From positions 1-22,491 of the IMG/VR virus record IMGVR_UViG_3300032285_003872: 22,491 nt of DNA, one strand, 5' to 3'. The DNA comes from a virus. Made by a program: the position numbers and the translations under genes. Below are positions 3,203 through 10,719 of this stretch, piece by piece; position 1 is the stretch's first letter; every line of letters begins with the position of its first letter. The notes beneath the pieces were generated by a model. The model worked only from the letters and a program-made list of their open reading frames with translations. It had not been told where the DNA came from and ran no database searches.

Positions 3203-3436
3203 ATGTCTAAAAAAACAGAAACAACAACACCAGTAAAACGTGGCCGTCCAACAGTAGAAGGTTCTAAGCGCCAGGCAGTATTAGCAATGCGTGCAGCTAA
3301 AGTAGCAGCAGGCGGAACGATACAACGTGGCCGTCCAAAGAATCCAGTCACGATTCAAGTAGATGTAGTAGCTAAAACAAAGACTGTTAAGTCTAAGGCG
3401 CCTAAGGCTGAAGTAGCTACTGACGAAACAATTTAA
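3203..3436 (+). CDS. Double AT-hook protein, 77 aa
   Basis: Two AT-hook cores are visible: VKRGRP (residues 11-16) and QRGRPKNP (41-48), separated by a basic helix (KRQAVLAMRAAKVAAGG). The AT-hook binds the minor groove of AT-rich DNA, which would suit this genome. The C-terminus is lysine- and alanine-rich and then acidic. I recall similar short 'RGRP...IAAGG...RGRPK' proteins from Bacteroidota phages, unverified. Likely roles are genome compaction or architectural regulation. The same hook occurs at the N-terminus of the RadA-like protein at 7243. Confidence 0.7.
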   Translation: MSKKTETTTPVKRGRPTVEGSKRQAVLAMRAAKVAAGGTIQRGRPKNPVTIQVDVVAKTKTVKSKAPKAEVATDETI

Positions 3437-3458
3437 GTCGGGGAACAGGTGTTCACGC

Positions 3459-3488
3459 AGGTGGGGGTGACGTTAGTCGCTCCTACCT
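3459..3488 (+). other. Strong 13-bp hairpin in spacer
   Basis: AGGTGGGGGTGAC (3459-3471) and GTCGCTCCTACCT (3476-3488) pair over all 13 positions as RNA (ten Watson-Crick, three G-U), with a GTTA tetraloop. A smaller hairpin GAAC-AGGT-GTTC lies just upstream (3443-3454). The G-U pairs favour RNA on this strand. No T-run follows, so it is either a stabilising 3' end for the AT-hook mRNA or a 5' leader structure for the gene at 3513. Confidence 0.5.
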
Positions 3489-3512: not shown

Positions 3513-3761
3513 ATGGATAATAACTTTAAACAGTCATTGAACGAATTAAAGGCTGAACTACAGGAGCTATATGAGACGCTAGATAATGAATTACGTAACA
3601 CTGATAACCAGGACCTAATTGATGATTCATATCATACAGTAACATCTAAATTAGAATCGGCATTATCTGAATTCGATACACTAATAAACGATATCGATCA
3701 GGGTGTATATCAGAGGTCGCTCGATCAAGACGATATGTTAGAGGCAGAAGAAGATTTATAA
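3513..3761 (+). CDS. Acidic coiled-coil protein, 82 aa
   Basis: Almost entirely helical and strongly acidic, with heptad-like hydrophobics (LNELKAELQELYETLDNEL, and later LESALSEFDTLINDI) and an acidic tail ending EAEEDL. It has no membrane segment or catalytic motif. Such acidic coiled-coil proteins can mimic DNA or bind basic partners; this is speculation from composition. The start follows an ATTAAAAATAAACT leader. The last 26 bases contain the first of three TGTTAGAGG repeats. Confidence 0.65.
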   Translation: MDNNFKQSLNELKAELQELYETLDNELRNTDNQDLIDDSYHTVTSKLESALSEFDTLINDIDQGVYQRSLDQDDMLEAEEDL

Positions 3762-4322: not shown

Positions 4323-4346
4323 TATAAATTTTCATACTATATAGAG

Positions 4347-4372
4347 GCCGGCCAATTATGGTCGGCTTTTTT
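4347..4372 (+). terminator. Rho-independent terminator
   Basis: GCCGGCC (4347-4353), loop AATTAT, GGTCGGC (4360-4366), then six T (4367-4372). One G-T pair, otherwise perfect. It ends one base before the next promoter begins. Confidence 0.85.
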
Positions 4373-4373
4373 A

Positions 4374-4400
4374 TTGACCGTAACTCAATTGCTATTTTTA
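4374..4400 (+). promoter_or_regulatory. 16-spacer family promoter
   Basis: TTG-ACCGTAACTCAATTGC-TATTTTTA (box 4393-4400), then ATTATATGAAAAATAAG. It follows directly on the terminator at 4347-4372. The first ATG (4406) is only five bases after the box, where transcription itself would begin. Confidence 0.7.
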
Positions 4401-4869: not shown

Positions 4870-5316
4870 ATGCAAAATCTAATCAAAGTTAACACCGGAC
4901 ATTTAGCAAGTGAAGTATTTTATGGTTCAATAAGAATTAATGGTCAAGAAATTAGTGTATCTAATCATTTAAAAGAAGATGTTGTTTATAATTTCAGAAT
5001 GACTGCTAAATCAAAAGCCGGTTTTCAAACCATCAGAGATGTAAGTTGTGCAGGTAAAGATTTAAGTTTAGTTATGTCTAAACATACAACTGTAGTTGAA
5101 GTTGAAAGATTAATTGATGGTAGGTCATATTGGTTTCATGTATTAACAACTAAAGGTGGTAAATGGTATTCAATTGACAAAGCGATTTTAGAAAGTATAA
5201 CCGTAGGTGACATGCACAATGCATTTTCTAAAATGATTGATTGGAATATTTGGAACCAGGTAGGTGCAAAAACACACGCTTGTAAATCATTTGTAAACAA
5301 TAAAAAAGCCGCTTAA
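4870..5316 (+). CDS. Hypothetical protein, 148 aa
   Basis: The largest protein of the accessory region. The first 95 residues read as successive beta strands (VFYGSIRINGQEISV, VVYNFRMTAKS, TVVEVERLIDGRSYWFHVLT), suggesting a beta-barrel or sandwich. The C-terminal 50 residues are helical (SIDKAILESITVGDMHNAFS), with W-rich DWNIWNQ. Three cysteines occur but form no CxxC pair. It forms a two-gene unit with the gene at 5318, one base downstream. No family recognised. Confidence 0.7.
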   Translation: MQNLIKVNTGHLASEVFYGSIRINGQEISVSNHLKEDVVYNFRMTAKSKAGFQTIRDVSCAGKDLSLVMSKHTTVVEVERLIDGRSYWFHVLTTKGGKWYSIDKAILESITVGDMHNAFSKMIDWNIWNQVGAKTHACKSFVNNKKAA

Positions 5317-5317
5317 T

Positions 5318-5518
5318 ATGAAAATAGAAATTGGTAATTGGATTACAATCGGCCAACAAGAAGAACAATACGAGGTCATTAAAATGGACGGTAGCGGGAG
5401 TATTTGGTTTAAAATACCAAATGGAATTGGGCAGACAGCTGAATGTGTAATAAGTAAGGTATCTACTACTAAAGTAGAACCGCCTAAAAAACCAAGAAAA
5501 AACGCTAAAACTAAATGA
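5318..5518 (+). CDS. Small protein with basic tail, 66 aa
   Basis: The N-terminal 45 residues look like a small beta barrel (IEIGNWITIG, YEVIKMDGSGSIWFKI), in the style of an SH3- or Tudor-like fold. The last 16 residues are proline- and lysine-rich (VEPPKKPRKNAKTK), a likely nucleic-acid contact. It begins one base after the previous stop and is co-transcribed with it. The TGA stop is part of the following promoter box. Not recognised, and the fold suggestion is from residue pattern only. Confidence 0.65.
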   Translation: MKIEIGNWITIGQQEEQYEVIKMDGSGSIWFKIPNGIGQTAECVISKVSTTKVEPPKKPRKNAKTK

Positions 5519-5541
5519 CCTCAATTAATTAACTATATTCA
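5515..5541 (+). promoter_or_regulatory. 16-spacer family promoter
   Basis: ATG-ACCTCAATTAATTAAC-TATATTCA (box 5534-5541), then TATATAAATAAGAAG and the ATG at 5559. The box has C in place of T at position 6, as in the promoter at 5699-5725, which has an identical downstream run. Confidence 0.7.
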
Positions 5542-5558
5542 TATATAAATAAGAAGTT

Positions 5559-5702
5559 ATGGTAAACGTTAGCGAATTTAAGAAATTAGTTGAAACTCAA
5601 AAAGAATTAGGTGAGGTGTTAGCAAAATTAGCCGCCGCTAAAATTAAAGCGGGCTATAGAAAAACACCAAATGGTAAGTACATAATTACATTTTTCATTT
5701 AA
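5559..5702 (+). CDS. Hypothetical protein, 47 aa
   Basis: ATG 5559 to TAA 5700-5702, 47 residues. The N-terminal half is a helix (VSEFKKLVETQKELGEVLAK) and the C-terminal half has short strands (YRKTPNGKYIITFFI). It has a good promoter and leader upstream, and the next promoter overlaps its stop, so it is a private unit. Its size suits an early host-interaction peptide, but no function can be read from it. Confidence 0.6.
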   Translation: MVNVSEFKKLVETQKELGEVLAKLAAAKIKAGYRKTPNGKYIITFFI

Positions 5703-5725
5703 CCGAAATTAATTTAGTATATTCA
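5699..5725 (+). promoter_or_regulatory. 16-spacer family promoter
   Basis: TTA-ACCGAAATTAATTTAG-TATATTCA (box 5718-5725), then TATATAAATAAGAAAAC and the ATG at 5743. TTA replaces the usual nTG, but ACC, spacing and box are kept. Confidence 0.65.
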
Positions 5726-5742
5726 TATATAAATAAGAAAAC

Positions 5743-5979
5743 ATGAGTAAAGAAGTCGGAATAAATCTTAGCCAACAAGAACTTAATGATTTGTATTATT
5801 GTGTTGAAATGGTTTGTCGTAAAGAACTTAATGACGTGTTTAAAAAAAGATTAGATTTATTAAGTGATAAGATTGGAGAAGAAGTTTATAAATTGGCTAA
5901 GGAGCAACAACTCGAAGAAGATAAGCTTAGACATGAAATGAATTTCAAACGTGCGTTTGTTAGACATGGTGATTATTAA
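5743..5979 (+). CDS. Helical hypothetical protein, 78 aa
   Basis: A nearly all-helical charged protein: LSQQELNDLYYCVEMVCRKE, then VFKKRLDLLSDKIGEEVYKL and a mixed-charge tail. It looks like a helical hairpin or coiled coil. It has its own promoter (5699-5725), and three or four more small genes follow in the same direction without a 16-spacer promoter, so it may head an operon reaching 6991. Not recognised. Confidence 0.65.
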   Translation: MSKEVGINLSQQELNDLYYCVEMVCRKELNDVFKKRLDLLSDKIGEEVYKLAKEQQLEEDKLRHEMNFKRAFVRHGDY

Positions 5980-6010
5980 AATATTTATATAAAACAAAAA
6001 CAATAAAAGT

Positions 6011-6250
6011 ATGGGATTCTATTACGACAAACACTCCGACCAAGAAAGAATGATTGGTAAATTTGAAAAGACAGTTAAACGTAACAAACAAGAGATGAAT
6101 GAAGATCATCCGGATTTTACTCCTACAATGTTACCACTTGCTGAACAATTTAAGTATTGGGAAAGAATGAATGCTAAGAAGAAAGCTCAAAAAGAAATTG
6201 AAGACGCTAGATTGAAAAAAGTAGATACACGAGTAACATATTATAAATAA
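6011..6250 (+). CDS. Hypothetical protein, 79 aa
   Basis: Charged and helical (ERMIGKFEKTVKRNKQEM, and KYWERMNAKKKAQKEIEDAR), with a central loop HPDFTPTMLPLAEQ. The start is preceded by AATATTTATATAAAACAAAAACAATAAAAGT, which contains ATATTTATA (5981-5989), the element found before late genes. Here, in an AT-rich gap, that may be chance. It is the second gene of the run 5743-6991. Function unknown. Confidence 0.65.
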   Translation: MGFYYDKHSDQERMIGKFEKTVKRNKQEMNEDHPDFTPTMLPLAEQFKYWERMNAKKKAQKEIEDARLKKVDTRVTYYK

Positions 6251-6265
6251 AATAAAATAAAGATT

Positions 6266-6463
6266 ATGGTTTTGAATTTTGATTATACATTAGAAGAATG
6301 TTTAGGTGAACAGGTTTGTGTTAGGATATTTCAAGAAGATGATCATGTTGATACAGCTTTAGAAATTTGGCAAATAGCTAAACCTGCTGATTATGAGGAG
6401 CTTAAAAAACAAATTAAGCAACTTATTGAAACAGATATGTTAAAGGAATATTTTATATGCTAA
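6266..6463 (+). CDS. Acidic hypothetical protein, 65 aa
   Basis: An acidic protein with strand-like QVCVRIFQEDDHVDTALEIW and a helical C-terminus (YEELKKQIKQLIETDMLKEY). There is no signal or membrane segment. It follows the previous gene by 15 bases with a typical A-rich leader (AATAAAATAAAGATT). Its end overlaps a possible upstream ATG (6457) of the next gene. Not recognised. Confidence 0.65.
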   Translation: MVLNFDYTLEECLGEQVCVRIFQEDDHVDTALEIWQIAKPADYEELKKQIKQLIETDMLKEYFIC

Positions 6464-6474
6464 AAAATAAGTTT

Positions 6475-6684
6475 ATGAAAATGCAAGTAGTTGATTATGC
6501 TCAGTATATAACTAGAAGATGGTTAATTGATTGGAAAGGAGAAGAATATAAAATTAATTTTGCTGAAGGAGACATTTATGATGATTGGATGATTATAAAT
6601 AGTGAAGGATTAGAATTAGATATCGAATCAGAAACAGCTCAAAAATTAATTGAATTTTGTGAAGAACAACTCGAAAAAGAATAA
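6475..6684 (+). CDS. Acidic hypothetical protein, 69 aa
   Basis: The start at 6475 is preferred because AAAAAATAAGTTTATG matches leaders of neighbours (for example AATAAAGTTTATG before 6803). The longer alternative starts at 6457 and adds six residues. The product has aromatic-rich strands (YITRRWLIDWKGEEYKINF, DIYDDWMIINSEG) and an acidic C-terminal helix (AQKLIEFCEEQLEKE). It resembles a small alpha/beta phage protein, but no family can be named. A further small frame follows at 6707. Confidence 0.6.
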   Translation: MKMQVVDYAQYITRRWLIDWKGEEYKINFAEGDIYDDWMIINSEGLELDIESETAQKLIEFCEEQLEKE

Positions 6685-6706
6685 ATCAGAAGAACCAAAA
6701 ATTATA

Positions 6707-6793
6707 GTGGTGAAATATAAAGGTAAAAAACCTAAATATCATCGATCACGATTAAAATTAAATAAAGACGGTTCAATAACAATTTACGAATAA
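6707..6793 (+). CDS. Candidate small basic protein, 28 aa (GTG start uncertain)
   Basis: A frame without ATG ends at TAA 6791-6793. From GTG 6707 it reads VVKYKGKKPKYHRSRLKLNK and then DGSITIYE. This looks protein-like: a basic strand region followed by a turn and a strand. The frame stays open upstream to about 6653 and overlaps the end of the previous gene in the +1 frame, so a GTG at 6659 or a +1 frameshift from that gene is also possible. Spacing fills the otherwise empty gap before 6803. Confidence 0.35.
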   Translation: MVKYKGKKPKYHRSRLKLNKDGSITIYE

Positions 6794-6802
6794 ATAAAGT
6801 TT

Positions 6803-6991
6803 ATGAATATTACAATCGAACGATTAGAGCAAATCGAAAATGAAAGAAACAAAACAATGGGAGATAAACATTTCCAACAATGGATGAGAGATTTAAATGT
6901 GTCTCAATCATGCCAAGATAAAACTCCTATTATACGAGCTTATGATATCATTAAACAATACGATTATAGTGATTTTAGGTTAGCTAATTAA
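6803..6991 (+). CDS. Hypothetical protein, 62 aa
   Basis: A small helical protein (IERLEQIENERNKTMGDKHF, then QQWMRDLNVSQ) with a C-terminal segment PIIRAYDIIKQYDYSDF. It has no membrane segment or motif. It is the last gene of the run from 5743. A structured, G-rich spacer with two promoters follows. Function unknown. Confidence 0.6.
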   Translation: MNITIERLEQIENERNKTMGDKHFQQWMRDLNVSQSCQDKTPIIRAYDIIKQYDYSDFRLAN

Positions 6992-7004
6992 TAATTAACG
7001 CTCT

Positions 7005-7055
7005 ATAAAGTGGAGGACTCGGTTTTTTTGACCGGGATACCTTAAATAACTTTAT
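7005..7055 (+). other. Inverted repeat enclosing a promoter-like element
   Basis: ATAAAGT (7005-7011) and ACTTTAT (7049-7055) are exact reverse complements. Between them CGGT (7020-7023) and ACCG (7031-7034) can form an inner stem with a T-rich loop. The left half, with TTTTTTT at 7023-7029, could serve as the end of the upstream operon. The right arm overlaps the -7 box of the promoter at 7028-7054. Confidence 0.35.
7028..7054 (+). promoter_or_regulatory. 16-spacer family promoter with no close gene
   Basis: TTG-ACCGGGATACCTTAAA-TAACTTTA (box 7047-7054) keeps the family spacing. Unlike the other members it has no start codon nearby: the next ATG is 7137, 82 bases on, past a strong hairpin (7070-7099) and a second promoter (7089-7115). 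It may make a short structured RNA or give the tiny gene a second, longer transcript. Confidence 0.5.
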
Positions 7056-7069
7056 CACAATTTGGTGAA

Positions 7070-7099
7070 GCCCCGTGAGTCAGTTTAACTGACCGGGGC
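7070..7099 (+). other. Strong hairpin overlapping a promoter; possible small RNA
   Basis: GCCCCG (7070-7075) pairs with CGGGGC (7094-7099). Inside, GTCAG-TTTAA-CTGAC (7079-7093) is a perfect palindrome, with only TGA (7076-7078) unpaired. No T-run follows. The right arm contains the CTGACC box of the promoter at 7089-7115. It is either an operator-like dyad or the body of an RNA started at 7028-7054. Confidence 0.5.
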
Positions 7100-7115
7100 T
7101 CTCTTGCTATCTTTA
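7089..7115 (+). promoter_or_regulatory. 16-spacer family promoter
   Basis: CTG-ACCGGGGCTCTCTTGC-TATCTTTA (box 7108-7115), then TTATATAAG. Box and downstream sequence match the promoter at 2685-2711. It lies 21 bases before the ATG at 7137. Confidence 0.65.
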
Positions 7116-7136
7116 TTATATAAGAAATTAGGGTAT

Positions 7137-7196
7137 ATGGTGATTATAATATTATGGATTTTGTTAATGTATAGTTTGTTAAGTAAAAAGAAATAA
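7137..7196 (+). CDS. Tiny membrane peptide, 19 aa
   Basis: ATG 7137 to TAA 7194-7196 encodes MVIIILWILLMYSLLSKKK, a single hydrophobic helix with a positive C-terminus. Its promoter resembles that of the 30-residue membrane peptide at 2729, and the promoter for the RadA-like gene begins at the base after its stop. Context is the main support, since a frame this short could arise by chance. If real, it would sit in the inner membrane. Confidence 0.45.
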   Translation: MVIIILWILLMYSLLSKKK

Positions 7197-7223
7197 TTGA
7201 CCGCAACTAGTATATTAAATTTA
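7197..7223 (+). promoter_or_regulatory. 16-spacer family promoter
   Basis: TTG-ACCGCAACTAGTATAT-TAAATTTA (box 7216-7223), then TTAGATAAAATAAAAAAGT and the ATG at 7243. This drives the RadA-like gene. Confidence 0.75.
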
Positions 7224-7242
7224 TTAGATAAAATAAAAAAGT

Positions 7243-8070
7243 ATGAATACAATTAAGAAAAAAAGAGGTAGACCATCAAAAAATCAAGTAGCTAATTTTA
7301 ATGTTTCTATTTCAACTCCACTTAGTTTAGACATTGTTAAGTTGAATCGTTTGGATATTGATCCTAGGATGATGGAAACTATGAAAAGTGGAATGGCAAT
7401 TGATGATTTAATTTCACATGAAGGTGGTGTTCCATGTGCAACTAATATTATGTGTATAGGTGATCCAGGTGTAGGTAAAACAACTGTACTATTAGATTTA
7501 TTAGCTTCAATTAACAATAAAGGTAGAAAATGTTTGTTTATTTCAGGTGAAATGGGTAAAAAACAAATGTTCAAATACACACAACGTTTTCCACAATTCG
7601 GAAACATTCAAACATTGTTTATGGCTGATTATTTAGAACACAATACAAAAGACGTAATTGAAAAAGTTATGGATATGGGTTGGGATTTGATATTAATTGA
7701 TTCAATTGCTGAAATAATAGAAGGTGTACGTGACGATAATAAATGGGATAGAAAACAAGCCGAATCATGGTTAGTTGATATGTGTATCAAGAATAATAAA
7801 GGTGAAAATGATAAAGATTTGTTCACATCGTTTTTACTAATTCAACAAGTAACTAAATCAGGTGAGTTTGTAGGTTCAAATAAATTGAAACATATGACGG
7901 ATGCAATGATGGAAATGAGAAGAAGAAGTGACCGTGATGGTGGTGGCACATATATGAACTTCATTAAGAATAGAAACGGGGATGTGAATATGCAATTCAA
8001 TTATGAATTACAAAACAACGGAATATATTACGGCACAATTACAAGAGCAGAAGATGATGATGCCGAATAA
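7243..8070 (+). CDS. RadA/Sms-like RecA-fold ATPase with N-terminal AT-hook
   Basis: A 275-residue RecA-fold ATPase. Visible motifs: AT-hook KKRGRPSK (6-13), Walker A GDPGVGKT (73-80), SGEMGKKQ (101-108; bacterial RadA has SGEES..Q), Walker B LILIDSI (149-155), QQVTKSGEFVG (201-211; compare the HVTKEG of RadA), LKHMTDAMM (215-223) and KNRNG (242-246; the RadA signature is KNRFG). It lacks the RadA N-terminal zinc finger and C-terminal Lon-like domain. RadA promotes branch migration in recombination, and phage RecA-fold proteins of this size often act in UvsX- or helicase-like roles. A recombination or repair role on phage DNA is inferred, and the AT-hook should add DNA affinity. Confidence 0.85.
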   Translation: MNTIKKKRGRPSKNQVANFNVSISTPLSLDIVKLNRLDIDPRMMETMKSGMAIDDLISHEGGVPCATNIMCIGDPGVGKTTVLLDLLASINNKGRKCLFISGEMGKKQMFKYTQRFPQFGNIQTLFMADYLEHNTKDVIEKVMDMGWDLILIDSIAEIIEGVRDDNKWDRKQAESWLVDMCIKNNKGENDKDLFTSFLLIQQVTKSGEFVGSNKLKHMTDAMMEMRRRSDRDGGGTYMNFIKNRNGDVNMQFNYELQNNGIYYGTITRAEDDDAE

Positions 8071-8072
8071 TT

Positions 8073-8099
8073 TTAACCTCAATTCAATTATTAAATTAA
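8073..8099 (+). promoter_or_regulatory. 16-spacer family promoter
   Basis: TTA-ACCTCAATTCAATTAT-TAAATTAA (box 8092-8099), then ATAAAATATAAAAT and the ATG at 8114. TTA replaces nTG, and ACC, spacing and box type are kept. Confidence 0.6.
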
Positions 8100-8113
8100 A
8101 TAAAATATAAAAT

Positions 8114-8308
8114 ATGATTAAGACAATATTAGAATTTATAGGTTTACTTTGTATAGTAGCTGTATTATTAGGATATCCACTTATGTTACTTTGGAATTGG
8201 TTGATGCCTGATTTATTTAATTTACCTGTAATTAGTTTTTGGCAAGCAATAGGATTGAATATTTTATCAAGTATACTTTTTAATCACTCAACTATAAAAA
8301 ATAATTAA
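8114..8308 (+). CDS. Two-helix membrane protein, 64 aa
   Basis: Two hydrophobic segments are seen: residues about 3-30 (ILEFIGLLCIVAVLLGYPLM, followed by LLWNW) and about 40-56 (VISFWQAIGLNILSSILF). They are joined by a short loop with MPDLFNLP. Similar short 'FWQAIGLNILSSILF' membrane proteins are common in Bacteroidota phages as far as I recall. The gene shares a promoter with the unknown 380-residue gene, which starts one base after its stop, so a functional link is possible but unproven. Confidence 0.65.
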   Translation: MIKTILEFIGLLCIVAVLLGYPLMLLWNWLMPDLFNLPVISFWQAIGLNILSSILFNHSTIKNN

Positions 8309-8309
8309 T

Positions 8310-9452
8310 ATGTTAAATAGAATAGCATCAGTTTATTTTGGAGAATGGAGTAATTATAAAAAAAATAAAACTATAAATGGTGTAGGGTTTAAACCAGCAC
8401 AATATTGGGGGAATGATGATTTTTTCATTAATAGTACAGACAGTGTTAAATTTAAAAAAGCTTTTAAAGTAATTAATAATAGTAAACCCGAAAATATAAA
8501 GAAGAATAGTATTGTATATGCTTCTAGAGCAAGTGAAATACCACGATTCAAATTAAAAGAATATATTAAAGACAATAATTTTAAAAAAACGTCTAAAGTA
8601 GATAGTGCAGATATTATTATAATAAATAAAGGATACTTTAATGATATAGTCAAAAAATTACATTTTAGTAACCACTCATTTATTAATGAAGATTTTATTG
8701 TCAAACACGCTAAAACAATTTTTGAATTAAATAATAACAGCCCAGCAAATGAAAATATTATATATAGTAGTACTGATAAAAACAATGTTGCTTATATAGA
8801 TGAAAGTAGAATGAAAACTGTTGATTGGAATTCATTAAATAAAAAACAACCAGGAAGTAAAGATTTATTTGATAGTAATACACATACAACTGAAGGGATT
8901 ATTTTTCAAACATATAGAGAAAATAAATTAGTTGAATTAGTAACATTAATAGATAAACAAGTTGATAGGATTATTAGTGGTGATGTCAAATTTATTTTTG
9001 ATGAAGAATTGTTTGTTGAATTAAATAAAGAAGGAATTGAATTGGATGATGAATATCTTCAAACACTTCGTGATATGTTATTTAGTAAAGATGAATCTAA
9101 TGTTAAGTTAGGTTTTGAAATGATGTCTAATTTAGTTTTAAATCAATCAACATTATTAACAATAGCATTTTTATTAAATGAAATGTTTCATACAACTAGA
9201 TTCAGACCTAGTTATTATACAAATAATAATTCCAACCTTAAAAGTCTTTTAAAACTACTAAGAACTAAGGGTATAATGTGGGAACGTGATTGGAAATCGT
9301 TTGGTACTGGGTTGAGACTGAATTTTAAAACGGGTAAAGAAGGTGATATTGTCAGAAAGTTTTTACTTGATAATATTAATCGTGAGTTTAAATTAAGTAA
9401 CTCAGCTGCTGAAGCTATTGTGGATGTTGTTTTCTCGACCGAGATTAAATAA
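8310..9452 (+). CDS. Unknown 380-aa protein upstream of MoxR/VWA pair
   Basis: A soluble protein of 380 residues with no recognised domain. The N-terminal half is lysine- and asparagine-rich, with a Rossmann-like feel (SIVYASRASEIP, then DSADIIIINKGYF at about 98-110). The C-terminal half is helical, with repeats reminiscent of an armadillo-type layout (YLQTLRDMLFSKDESNVKLG, FEMMSNLVLNQSTLL). It lies in an operon with the small membrane protein before it, and its 3' end contains the promoter of the metallopeptidase-VWA gene. Context suggests it works with the MoxR/VWA machine, perhaps as substrate or adaptor. This is inference. Confidence 0.7.
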   Translation: MLNRIASVYFGEWSNYKKNKTINGVGFKPAQYWGNDDFFINSTDSVKFKKAFKVINNSKPENIKKNSIVYASRASEIPRFKLKEYIKDNNFKKTSKVDSADIIIINKGYFNDIVKKLHFSNHSFINEDFIVKHAKTIFELNNNSPANENIIYSSTDKNNVAYIDESRMKTVDWNSLNKKQPGSKDLFDSNTHTTEGIIFQTYRENKLVELVTLIDKQVDRIISGDVKFIFDEELFVELNKEGIELDDEYLQTLRDMLFSKDESNVKLGFEMMSNLVLNQSTLLTIAFLLNEMFHTTRFRPSYYTNNNSNLKSLLKLLRTKGIMWERDWKSFGTGLRLNFKTGKEGDIVRKFLLDNINREFKLSNSAAEAIVDVVFSTEIK

Positions 9453-9461
9453 ATAACTTAA
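9435..9461 (+). promoter_or_regulatory. 16-spacer family promoter inside gene end
   Basis: TCG-ACCGAGATTAAATAAA-TAACTTAA (box 9454-9461), then AATAAAATTATAATAT and the ATG at 9478. The upstream box is within the last codons of the 380-residue gene, so the VWA gene can be expressed separately. Confidence 0.55.
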
Positions 9462-9477
9462 AATAAAATTATAATAT

Positions 9478-10719
9478 ATGATATCAGACATGCATAGTGA
9501 AATAGCCAAACATTCAAAAACATTAATGTTCAAAGAACCGTTTTATGGTTTGTTTTTAATTGGCCTTAATAAAGAAATAAATGATGCTGTTCAAACCGCT
9601 TGTGTAGCTAAAGATGGTATCAATACTAAATTAGTTATTAGTCCTAAATTTTGGAATACAATAGGTGATAAATGTAAAGTAGCTGTTTTGAAACATGAAT
9701 TGTTACATATTGCTTTTAAACACCTTTATATGTTTGATGAATTTGACAATAAAGAATTATTGAATGTAGCAGCTGATTTAGAAATTAATCAATACATACA
9801 AGATGAGTATAAAGATGAAACATGGGATGGTTTAGAAATAACTAATGAACCTTGGGCTGCTTTAAAATTACCTGTAAAAGCAGGTACTAGAAAGTATTAT
9901 GAACTAATTAAAAAAGAAGAACAAGACAATCCAGATGGTGATGTAGCTAAGTTTATTCAAGCAATGAAAGATGCCAATGGTGATGGTGAAGCAAGAGAAA
10001 TAACATTAGGAGATGGTACTAAAGTAAATGTTAAAGCAACTCATGAATTTTGGAAACAATTTGAGGGTATGGATGAGGCAGAAAAGAAGTTGATGGAGAA
10101 ACAAATTGAATATCAACTTAAAGAAACAGCTGAACAAGTACAAAAAATGAGAGGTACTATACCTGGTGAGTTAAAAGAATTAATTGATAATTTATATGTA
10201 AGTGAAGAAGCTGTTATTGATTGGAGAGCTTATTTGAGACGTTTTAATGGTATGGCTTCTAAAGTATATACTAAAAAAACAAGACGCAAACCAAATAAAC
10301 GTTTTTATGGCAATCCAGCTCTAAAGATTAAACAAAAGAAAAATACATTAGTTGCTATTGATACTTCAGGTTCAGTTAGTAAGGATGATTTGAAAGAGTT
10401 TTTAAGTGAAATATATCATATTTGGAAAACAGGTACACAAGTAACTGTTGTTGAATGTGATGCTCATATTGGTCGTGTTTATGAATATAAAGGTAAGACA
10501 GAAGAAGCTCTTGAAGTAACAGGTAGGGGTGGTACAAGTTATGAACCAGTACTTGAATATTTACTTGACAATAGAGATAAGTATCAAAATTTAATTTATC
10601 TAACTGATGGGGAGTGTTCAGTTGAATCAACACCTTGTAAGCCTACATTATGGGTTCATTGTTCAGGACGAAGTATTAATAATGAATTGCCCGGAGCTAA
10701 AATACAAATTAATTCATAA
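9478..10719 (+). CDS. Metallopeptidase-like plus VWA domain protein (DUF2201 type)
   Basis: 413 residues in two parts. The N-terminal part has KHELLHIAFKH with the HExxH zinc motif at H73-H77, then AADLEINQYI (98-107), the typical third-ligand region of the DUF2201 metallopeptidase-like domain. A charged helical middle follows (190-260). The C-terminal part is a VWA fold with an intact MIDAS: DTSGS (295-299), GGTSYEP with T353, and LTDGE with D377. It should bind zinc N-terminally and magnesium C-terminally. Such proteins pair with MoxR-type AAA+ ATPases, and one is encoded 50 bases downstream. Proteolytic activity is not proven, and the pair may remodel complexes instead. Confidence 0.85.
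   Translation: MISDMHSEIAKHSKTLMFKEPFYGLFLIGLNKEINDAVQTACVAKDGINTKLVISPKFWNTIGDKCKVAVLKHELLHIAFKHLYMFDEFDNKELLNVAADLEINQYIQDEYKDETWDGLEITNEPWAALKLPVKAGTRKYYELIKKEEQDNPDGDVAKFIQAMKDANGDGEAREITLGDGTKVNVKATHEFWKQFEGMDEAEKKLMEKQIEYQLKETAEQVQKMRGTIPGELKELIDNLYVSEEAVIDWRAYLRRFNGMASKVYTKKTRRKPNKRFYGNPALKIKQKKNTLVAIDTSGSVSKDDLKEFLSEIYHIWKTGTQVTVVECDAHIGRVYEYKGKTEEALEVTGRGGTSYEPVLEYLLDNRDKYQNLIYLTDGECSVESTPCKPTLWVHCSGRSINNELPGAKIQINS

Follow-up and report, generated by a model that had tools for sequence, protein, structure and literature searches.

Architecture of the locus

We analyzed a virus record of 22,491 bases (the window; G+C 30%) in which a short stretch between a small ORF and a gene for a RecA/KaiC-like ATPase holds three promoter-like sequences, two stem-loops, and a tiny hydrophobic ORF (Table 1). 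Stem-loop 1 has its stem beginning about 21 nt past the stop codon at 6991, and the first boxes of promoters 1 and 2 are 61 nt apart. Transcription starts were inferred by placing the −7 box at −12 to −5, the position reported for F. psychrophilum sigma-A in PMC9723704. The initial annotation had described promoters 1 and 2 and stem-loop 2, with the first box of promoter 2 inside the right arm of the hairpin, and we recovered each of these in place. Its remark that promoter 1 has no nearby start codon also holds, as none occurs before 7137, while the stem-loop over the promoter 1 box, the 19-codon ORF, and the hairpin-free promoter 3 had escaped it.

Table 1 Features at the boundary upstream of the RecA-like gene, in window coordinates.
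Feature	Position	Strand	Details	Basis
Final gene ahead of the boundary	6803–6991	+	62-aa ORF	ORF list; no Pfam match
Stem-loop 1	7013–7043	+	Over the promoter 1 box; core stem 7018–7036	Fold; counterpart in L002 and L003
Promoter 1	7028–7054	+	TTGACC-N13-TAACTTTA; boxes TTGACC (7028–7033) and TAACTTTAT (7047–7055); start expected near 7059	Pattern
Stem-loop 2	7070–7099	+	GCCCCG-tga-GTCAG-TTTAA-CTGAC-CGGGGC, 3-nt bulge in left arm; 3′ arm carries the promoter 2 box	Fold; pairing kept in relatives
Promoter 2	7089–7115	+	CTGACC-N13-TATCTTTA; boxes CTGACC (7089–7094, within right arm of stem-loop 2) and TATCTTTAT (7108–7116); start expected near 7120	Pattern; orthologues in relatives
Tiny hydrophobic ORF	7137–7196	+	19 codons, MVIIILWILLMYSLLSKKK	Similar peptide at the equivalent place in L001, L002, L003, L007, L008 and L012
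Promoter 3	7197–7223	+	TTGACC-N13-TAAATTTA; hairpin-free, ahead of the RecA-like gene	Pattern
RecA/KaiC-like ATPase gene (UvsX-like)	7243–8070	+	Downstream unit	Pfam, PHROG

The RecA-like gene matches KaiC (2.2e-9) and RecA (1.4e-6) in Pfam and a UvsX-like family in PHROG (3.1e-5), where DnaB-like matches score better. Its protein matched 20 phage records, at best at 34%, and the DNA of 6800–8200 showed no similarity to phage records. Tiny hydrophobic ORFs behind the hairpin promoter fall into kinds unrelated to one another among phages, being MVIIILWILLMYSLLSKKK in the window and a 34–35-aa kind elsewhere (MIIWLFIILVIVINVIEVVKDVIDIIRLIINRIFK in L015), and none was found at this place in L004, L010, or L018. 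Codon changes in ten pairs of the 19-codon ORF (0–3 synonymous versus 2–6 replacing) give no sign of translation, and that such peptides act on the membrane is a guess.

The baseplate wedge protein of the window matches that of Flavobacterium phage immuto at 46%; this match and the promoter type suggest that the host is probably Flavobacterium-like, with a Microcystis phage record close behind at a nearly equal 45%. The four stretches of immuto contained no TGACC-N13 promoter and one TTTGG-N19 match. A tRNA/tmRNA scan of the window found none, and GC skew, considered as a sign of a replication origin, keeps its sign at the hairpin.

A promoter family with fixed spacing

The pattern TGACC-N13-TAnnTTTA occurs nine times on the forward strand of the window and never on the reverse strand, a reversed-pattern control gave no match, and the pattern was present in all 20 records searched. 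When gaps of 10–16 were allowed, the gap was 13 in all of the matches listed except those of L027 and L030, which belong to a distant group. A scan of 5000–10000 for E. coli-type promoters was uninformative (30 promoter-like sites versus 33.7 expected), and a search of genome contigs for the promoter pattern returned 12 stretches with no relatives among them. The promoter box itself differs among related phages: the group of the window uses TTGACC-N13-TA, whereas 33 distant loci (in the group L021–L056) use TTTGG-N19-TA, a spacing found in 73 of 86 plus-strand pattern matches.

In T4 middle promoters, an activator protein binds a MotA box at about −30; by analogy, a MotA-like phage activator could possibly act at the nearer TTGACC box. 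Bacteroidota sigma-A promoters, as set out in parts of PMC7366714 and PMC9723704, carry TTTG at about −33 and TAnnTTTG at −7. The phage family shares the TAnnTTT core of this −7 element, although it reads TAnnTTTA where the Bacteroidota type reads TAnnTTTG, a final letter fixed by the search pattern itself. Unlike the Bacteroidota type, it places TTGACC at −31 to −26 of the inferred start, at fixed spacing and nearer than −33, and the window promoters have no TTTG near −33. The TTTGG-N19-TA of the distant relatives sits close to the usual Bacteroidota sigma-A place.

Stability of the hairpins

Stem-loop 2 (7066–7104) folds at −20.4 kcal/mol (z = −4.67), a value equalled by none of 200 shuffles, and is the fourth best separate place in a scan of 11,226 plus-strand windows of 40 nt (mean −2.96, s.d. 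2.56). The longer stretch 7060–7140 stands out less (z = −1.91, with 10 of 200 shuffles as good). Stem-loop 1 reaches −15.1 over 7000–7060 (z = −2.89, 3 of 200 shuffles as good) and −13.0 kcal/mol over the promoter 1 box.

The hairpin in related phages

When virus contigs were searched with the RecA-like protein, 57 loci were recovered, 24 of them at 79% identity or more. Five of these do not cover the region (L001, L005, and L019, with L055 and L057 reaching only the gene end), leaving 19. In 17 of these 19 loci, the leading promoter in the 450 nt ahead of the RecA-like gene has its box covered by a hairpin of −12 kcal/mol or lower; for L006 and L013 the distance from this promoter to the gene is 288 nt and 370 nt, respectively, and further promoters lie in the interval. 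L015 and L016 keep the leading promoter without a hairpin. Since several loci are alike (L010/L011/L020/L051, L002/L003, and L015/L016), the independent cases number fewer than 19.

From the retrieved sequences we compiled 145 non-redundant promoters, leaving out near copies (no more than 6 differences per 100 nt) as well as sites lying too close to an end. An over-box fold of −12 or lower was found in 19 of them (13.1%), compared with 4.6% after exchange of left arms, and for the 15 distinct hairpins the mean native pairing was −18.0 against −14.2 when permuted, with none of 20,000 permutations as good. That 4.6% of exchanged arms reach the threshold is what chance pairing around a promoter box has in its favor; set against the native count, the permutations, and the recurrence at 17 of 19 related loci, we regard chance as a highly improbable explanation.

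The initial annotation had looked to relatives for conserved pairing with compensatory changes, and there the pairing is kept while the arm letters differ. At the orthologous site, position 5 of the 3′ arm is paired in 13 of 13 hairpins with four Watson–Crick types, and position 8 is likewise paired in all 13, as C-G, T-A, or T-G, these pairs being derived from folding and so biased towards pairing. In six in-register hairpins, both partners have changed at one column pair, and a single sequence breaks one pair with A-C. RNAalifold found no consensus structure for all 16 aligned hairpins, which we attribute to arms and bulges lying out of register. The native left arm was the best partner of its own right arm in only 3 of 15 hairpins, a foreign arm often pairing better. 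The exact letters of the hairpin at 7070–7099 had no match in virus contigs, in agreement with varying arm letters.

These data also bear on control at the DNA level, in which the inverted repeat over the box would serve as an operator or extrude as a cruciform to regulate the promoter. The repeat does cover the promoter box itself, and the stem of the window copy is about equally stable on both strands, slightly favoring the opposite one (−21.2 versus −20.4 for the hairpin at 7090). The arm letters, however, differ among phages and loci, which is not expected of an operator for a single protein and is the reason we place the operator reading second among the rivals. Moreover, 16 of the 19 over-box hairpins fold better as plus-strand RNA (one tie, two opposite, the window copy among the latter), a count that is inflated by selection on the plus-strand fold and by the fixed G of TGACC. 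Regulation of this kind seems improbable to us.

Hairpin position relative to upstream genes

Hairpins are placed after ORFs, at a particular range of distances. Where the promoter box lies 30–110 nt behind the upstream ORF (28 aa or more), a hairpin was found in 27 of 32 promoters, 19 of them over the box, compared with 3 of 87 promoters within 20 nt of the ORF and none of 24 beyond 110 nt; these bins were chosen after the gap distribution was known, and two of the 145 promoters fell outside them. In 16 of the 19 over-box cases the box is 33–50 nt past the upstream stop codon, and the second box in the window, L002, and L003 lies 97–98 nt from the upstream ORF. In eight of the 24 promoters of the far bin, the end of a tiny ORF is no more than 25 nt from the box, and in five of these the peptide is of the window kind.

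The over-box hairpin is restricted to the TGACC promoter family. Among 74 promoters with near spacing from the 33 distant loci (60–72% identity), a fold of −10 or lower occurred in 6 of 16 at gaps of 30–110 nt versus 8 of 31 at short gaps, a link so weak that we read the strong hairpin–gap association as a trait of the group of the window.

Other hairpins were seen near promoters and gene ends. An ordinary-looking terminator (GCCGGCC-aattat-GGTCGGC followed by TTTTTT) lies within window 4341–4400, its tail abutting a promoter box at 4375. A further hairpin promoter at 2661–2733 (box 2686) precedes a 30-aa hydrophobic ORF (MITIFEALIISVVSLFIYVVVKAAYQTWFK), and a promoter of similar make on the L002 contig (L080 13803) has different hairpin letters. 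Between an ORF end at 3436 and an ORF start at 3513, window 3449–3488 forms a strong hairpin (−23.7) without a T-run; in L083, L087, and L091, hairpins of other letters follow a similar ORF. Upstream of the hairpin promoter, L010, L015, and L043 carry, by eye, tandem palindromes like ACGTTGAAAATCAACGT, sometimes at least two in a row, which end near a TATA-rich stretch and are perhaps another boundary hairpin.

Possible termination or processing at the boundary

We asked how these hairpins compare with intrinsic (Rho-independent) terminators. Like such terminators, the window feature is a stable, GC-rich stem-loop soon past a stop codon and directly upstream of the next promoter; unlike them, its stem contains a promoter box, and the tail of stem-loop 2, TTGCTATCTTTATTA, carries the promoter −7 box in place of a U-run. 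The tails of the 19 over-box hairpins are T-richer than background (1.66 versus 0.90) with a U-run in none, and a terminator score was below zero in all 19 (best −0.1). This score is rough, as the hairpin before 4375 also scored below zero, its fold having swallowed the T-run. An E. coli-type terminator pattern scan of 5000–10000, as uninformative as its promoter counterpart, found no site against 0.9 expected. Hairpins without a U stretch behind stop codons are common in bacteria, according to part of PMC8355165. Termination at the hairpin is plausible.

With tails that have no proper U-run, RNA processing or stabilising is the main rival. Here the stem-loop in read-through RNA would be cut by an RNase III-like activity or would protect the upstream mRNA at its 3′ end, with the polymerase not stopped. 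A strong stem just past a stop codon would suit such a site, although ordinary terminators occupy comparable boundaries in the same phages; we consider this explanation rather unlikely.

A proposed boundary element sharing bases with the next promoter

The reading we prefer, to which we give about an even chance, is a boundary element: RNA from the preceding unit would be ended or trimmed at the stem-loop, whose 3′ arm also supplies the promoter box for the following unit. A GC-rich RNA stem-loop can form once transcription passes the upstream stop codon, and the DNA bases of its 3′ arm are those of the TTGACC box, at −31 to −26 of the following promoter. The hairpin would most likely stop or destabilise upstream read-through, leaving the next unit (the tiny hydrophobic peptide and the RecA-like gene) to its own promoter. 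The sequences themselves show that the hairpin is present, that its pairing survives changes of letters, that it is placed in the gap behind an upstream ORF, and that it is confined to this promoter family. Firing of the promoters, action in RNA and not in DNA, and termination in preference to processing are what we infer.

The recurrence of the over-box hairpin in related loci, its excess over exchanged and permuted arms, its concentration at the 30–110-nt gap, and the narrow 33–50-nt spacing from the stop codon all argue for a boundary element. So do the U-run-free hairpins near bacterial stop codons and the ordinary hairpin-plus-T-run terminators that stand, as separate hairpins, directly before promoters in the same phages (window 4341–4374; L091 and L095). 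Against it stand the missing U-runs with negative scores and the empty pattern scan, the hairpin-free promoters of L015 and L016, and the weak gap link in distant relatives. The frequent advantage of foreign arms, the RNAalifold result together with the single doubly changed and single broken pair in register, the slight opposite-strand preference of the window copy, and the bins fixed after the distances had been seen also count against it.

In the window the element occurs twice in tandem. Promoter 1 is part of the first of these copies, and RNA made from it would start near 7059 and at once enter the hairpin of the other. The initial annotation had proposed a small RNA, or interference of the first promoter with the second. 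Promoter 1 is indeed aimed at stem-loop 2 with no intervening start codon, and 24 of 24 letters at 7046–7069, running from the last part of promoter 1 to the base of the hairpin, are shared by the window, L002, and L003. The tandem arrangement, however, was found only in L002 and L003 among the 19 relatives, so a small RNA would not be generally conserved. Rfam gave no match for the whole window at gathering score, and, with a promoter pattern present, the tail of the hairpin makes a poor terminator. Thus the pairing that the proposal expected in relatives is there, the upstream promoter mostly is not, and a small RNA or interference cannot be the general reason for a hairpin found in 17 of 19 loci, while it could still operate in the window, L002, and L003; as an account of the feature we think it quite improbable. 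Because the tandem is so rare, we read promoter 1 as a sublineage copy, which looks like the product of a tandem duplication.

A bolder version of the boundary element, which we hold to be doubtful, is a dual-coded element in which about 16 bases act as a promoter box in the DNA and, in the RNA, complete a hairpin for stopping or processing by forming its closing arm, so that the start sequence of one unit would shut off the preceding one; in the tandem sublineage this would add a phage RNA of about 50 nt, from promoter 1 to hairpin 2. If the boundary reading is true, it shows how compact phage genomes let neighbouring transcription units meet in a single shared sequence, the element would be an easily scored landmark for splitting the uncultured phage genomes of this group into transcription units, and the apparently orphan promoter would be explained with no special small RNA needed.

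Comparison with known systems

A literature term search, narrow and confined to open-licence papers, found no precedent for a phage promoter box that forms part of a hairpin. RNase III sites beside T7 promoters and the intercistronic hairpins of T4 are, as here, RNA hairpins at the boundaries of phage units; to our knowledge, they share no bases with a promoter box. The ESAS of Cluster K mycobacteriophages, as described in part of PMC3203893, resemble the present element in that inverted repeats closely precede a short conserved motif found ahead of a subset of the numerous small phage genes. In that account the ESAS repeats have a consensus sequence and sit by translation starts, whereas in the group of the window the arm letters vary with no consensus repeat, the pairing is kept, and the partner of the hairpin is a promoter.
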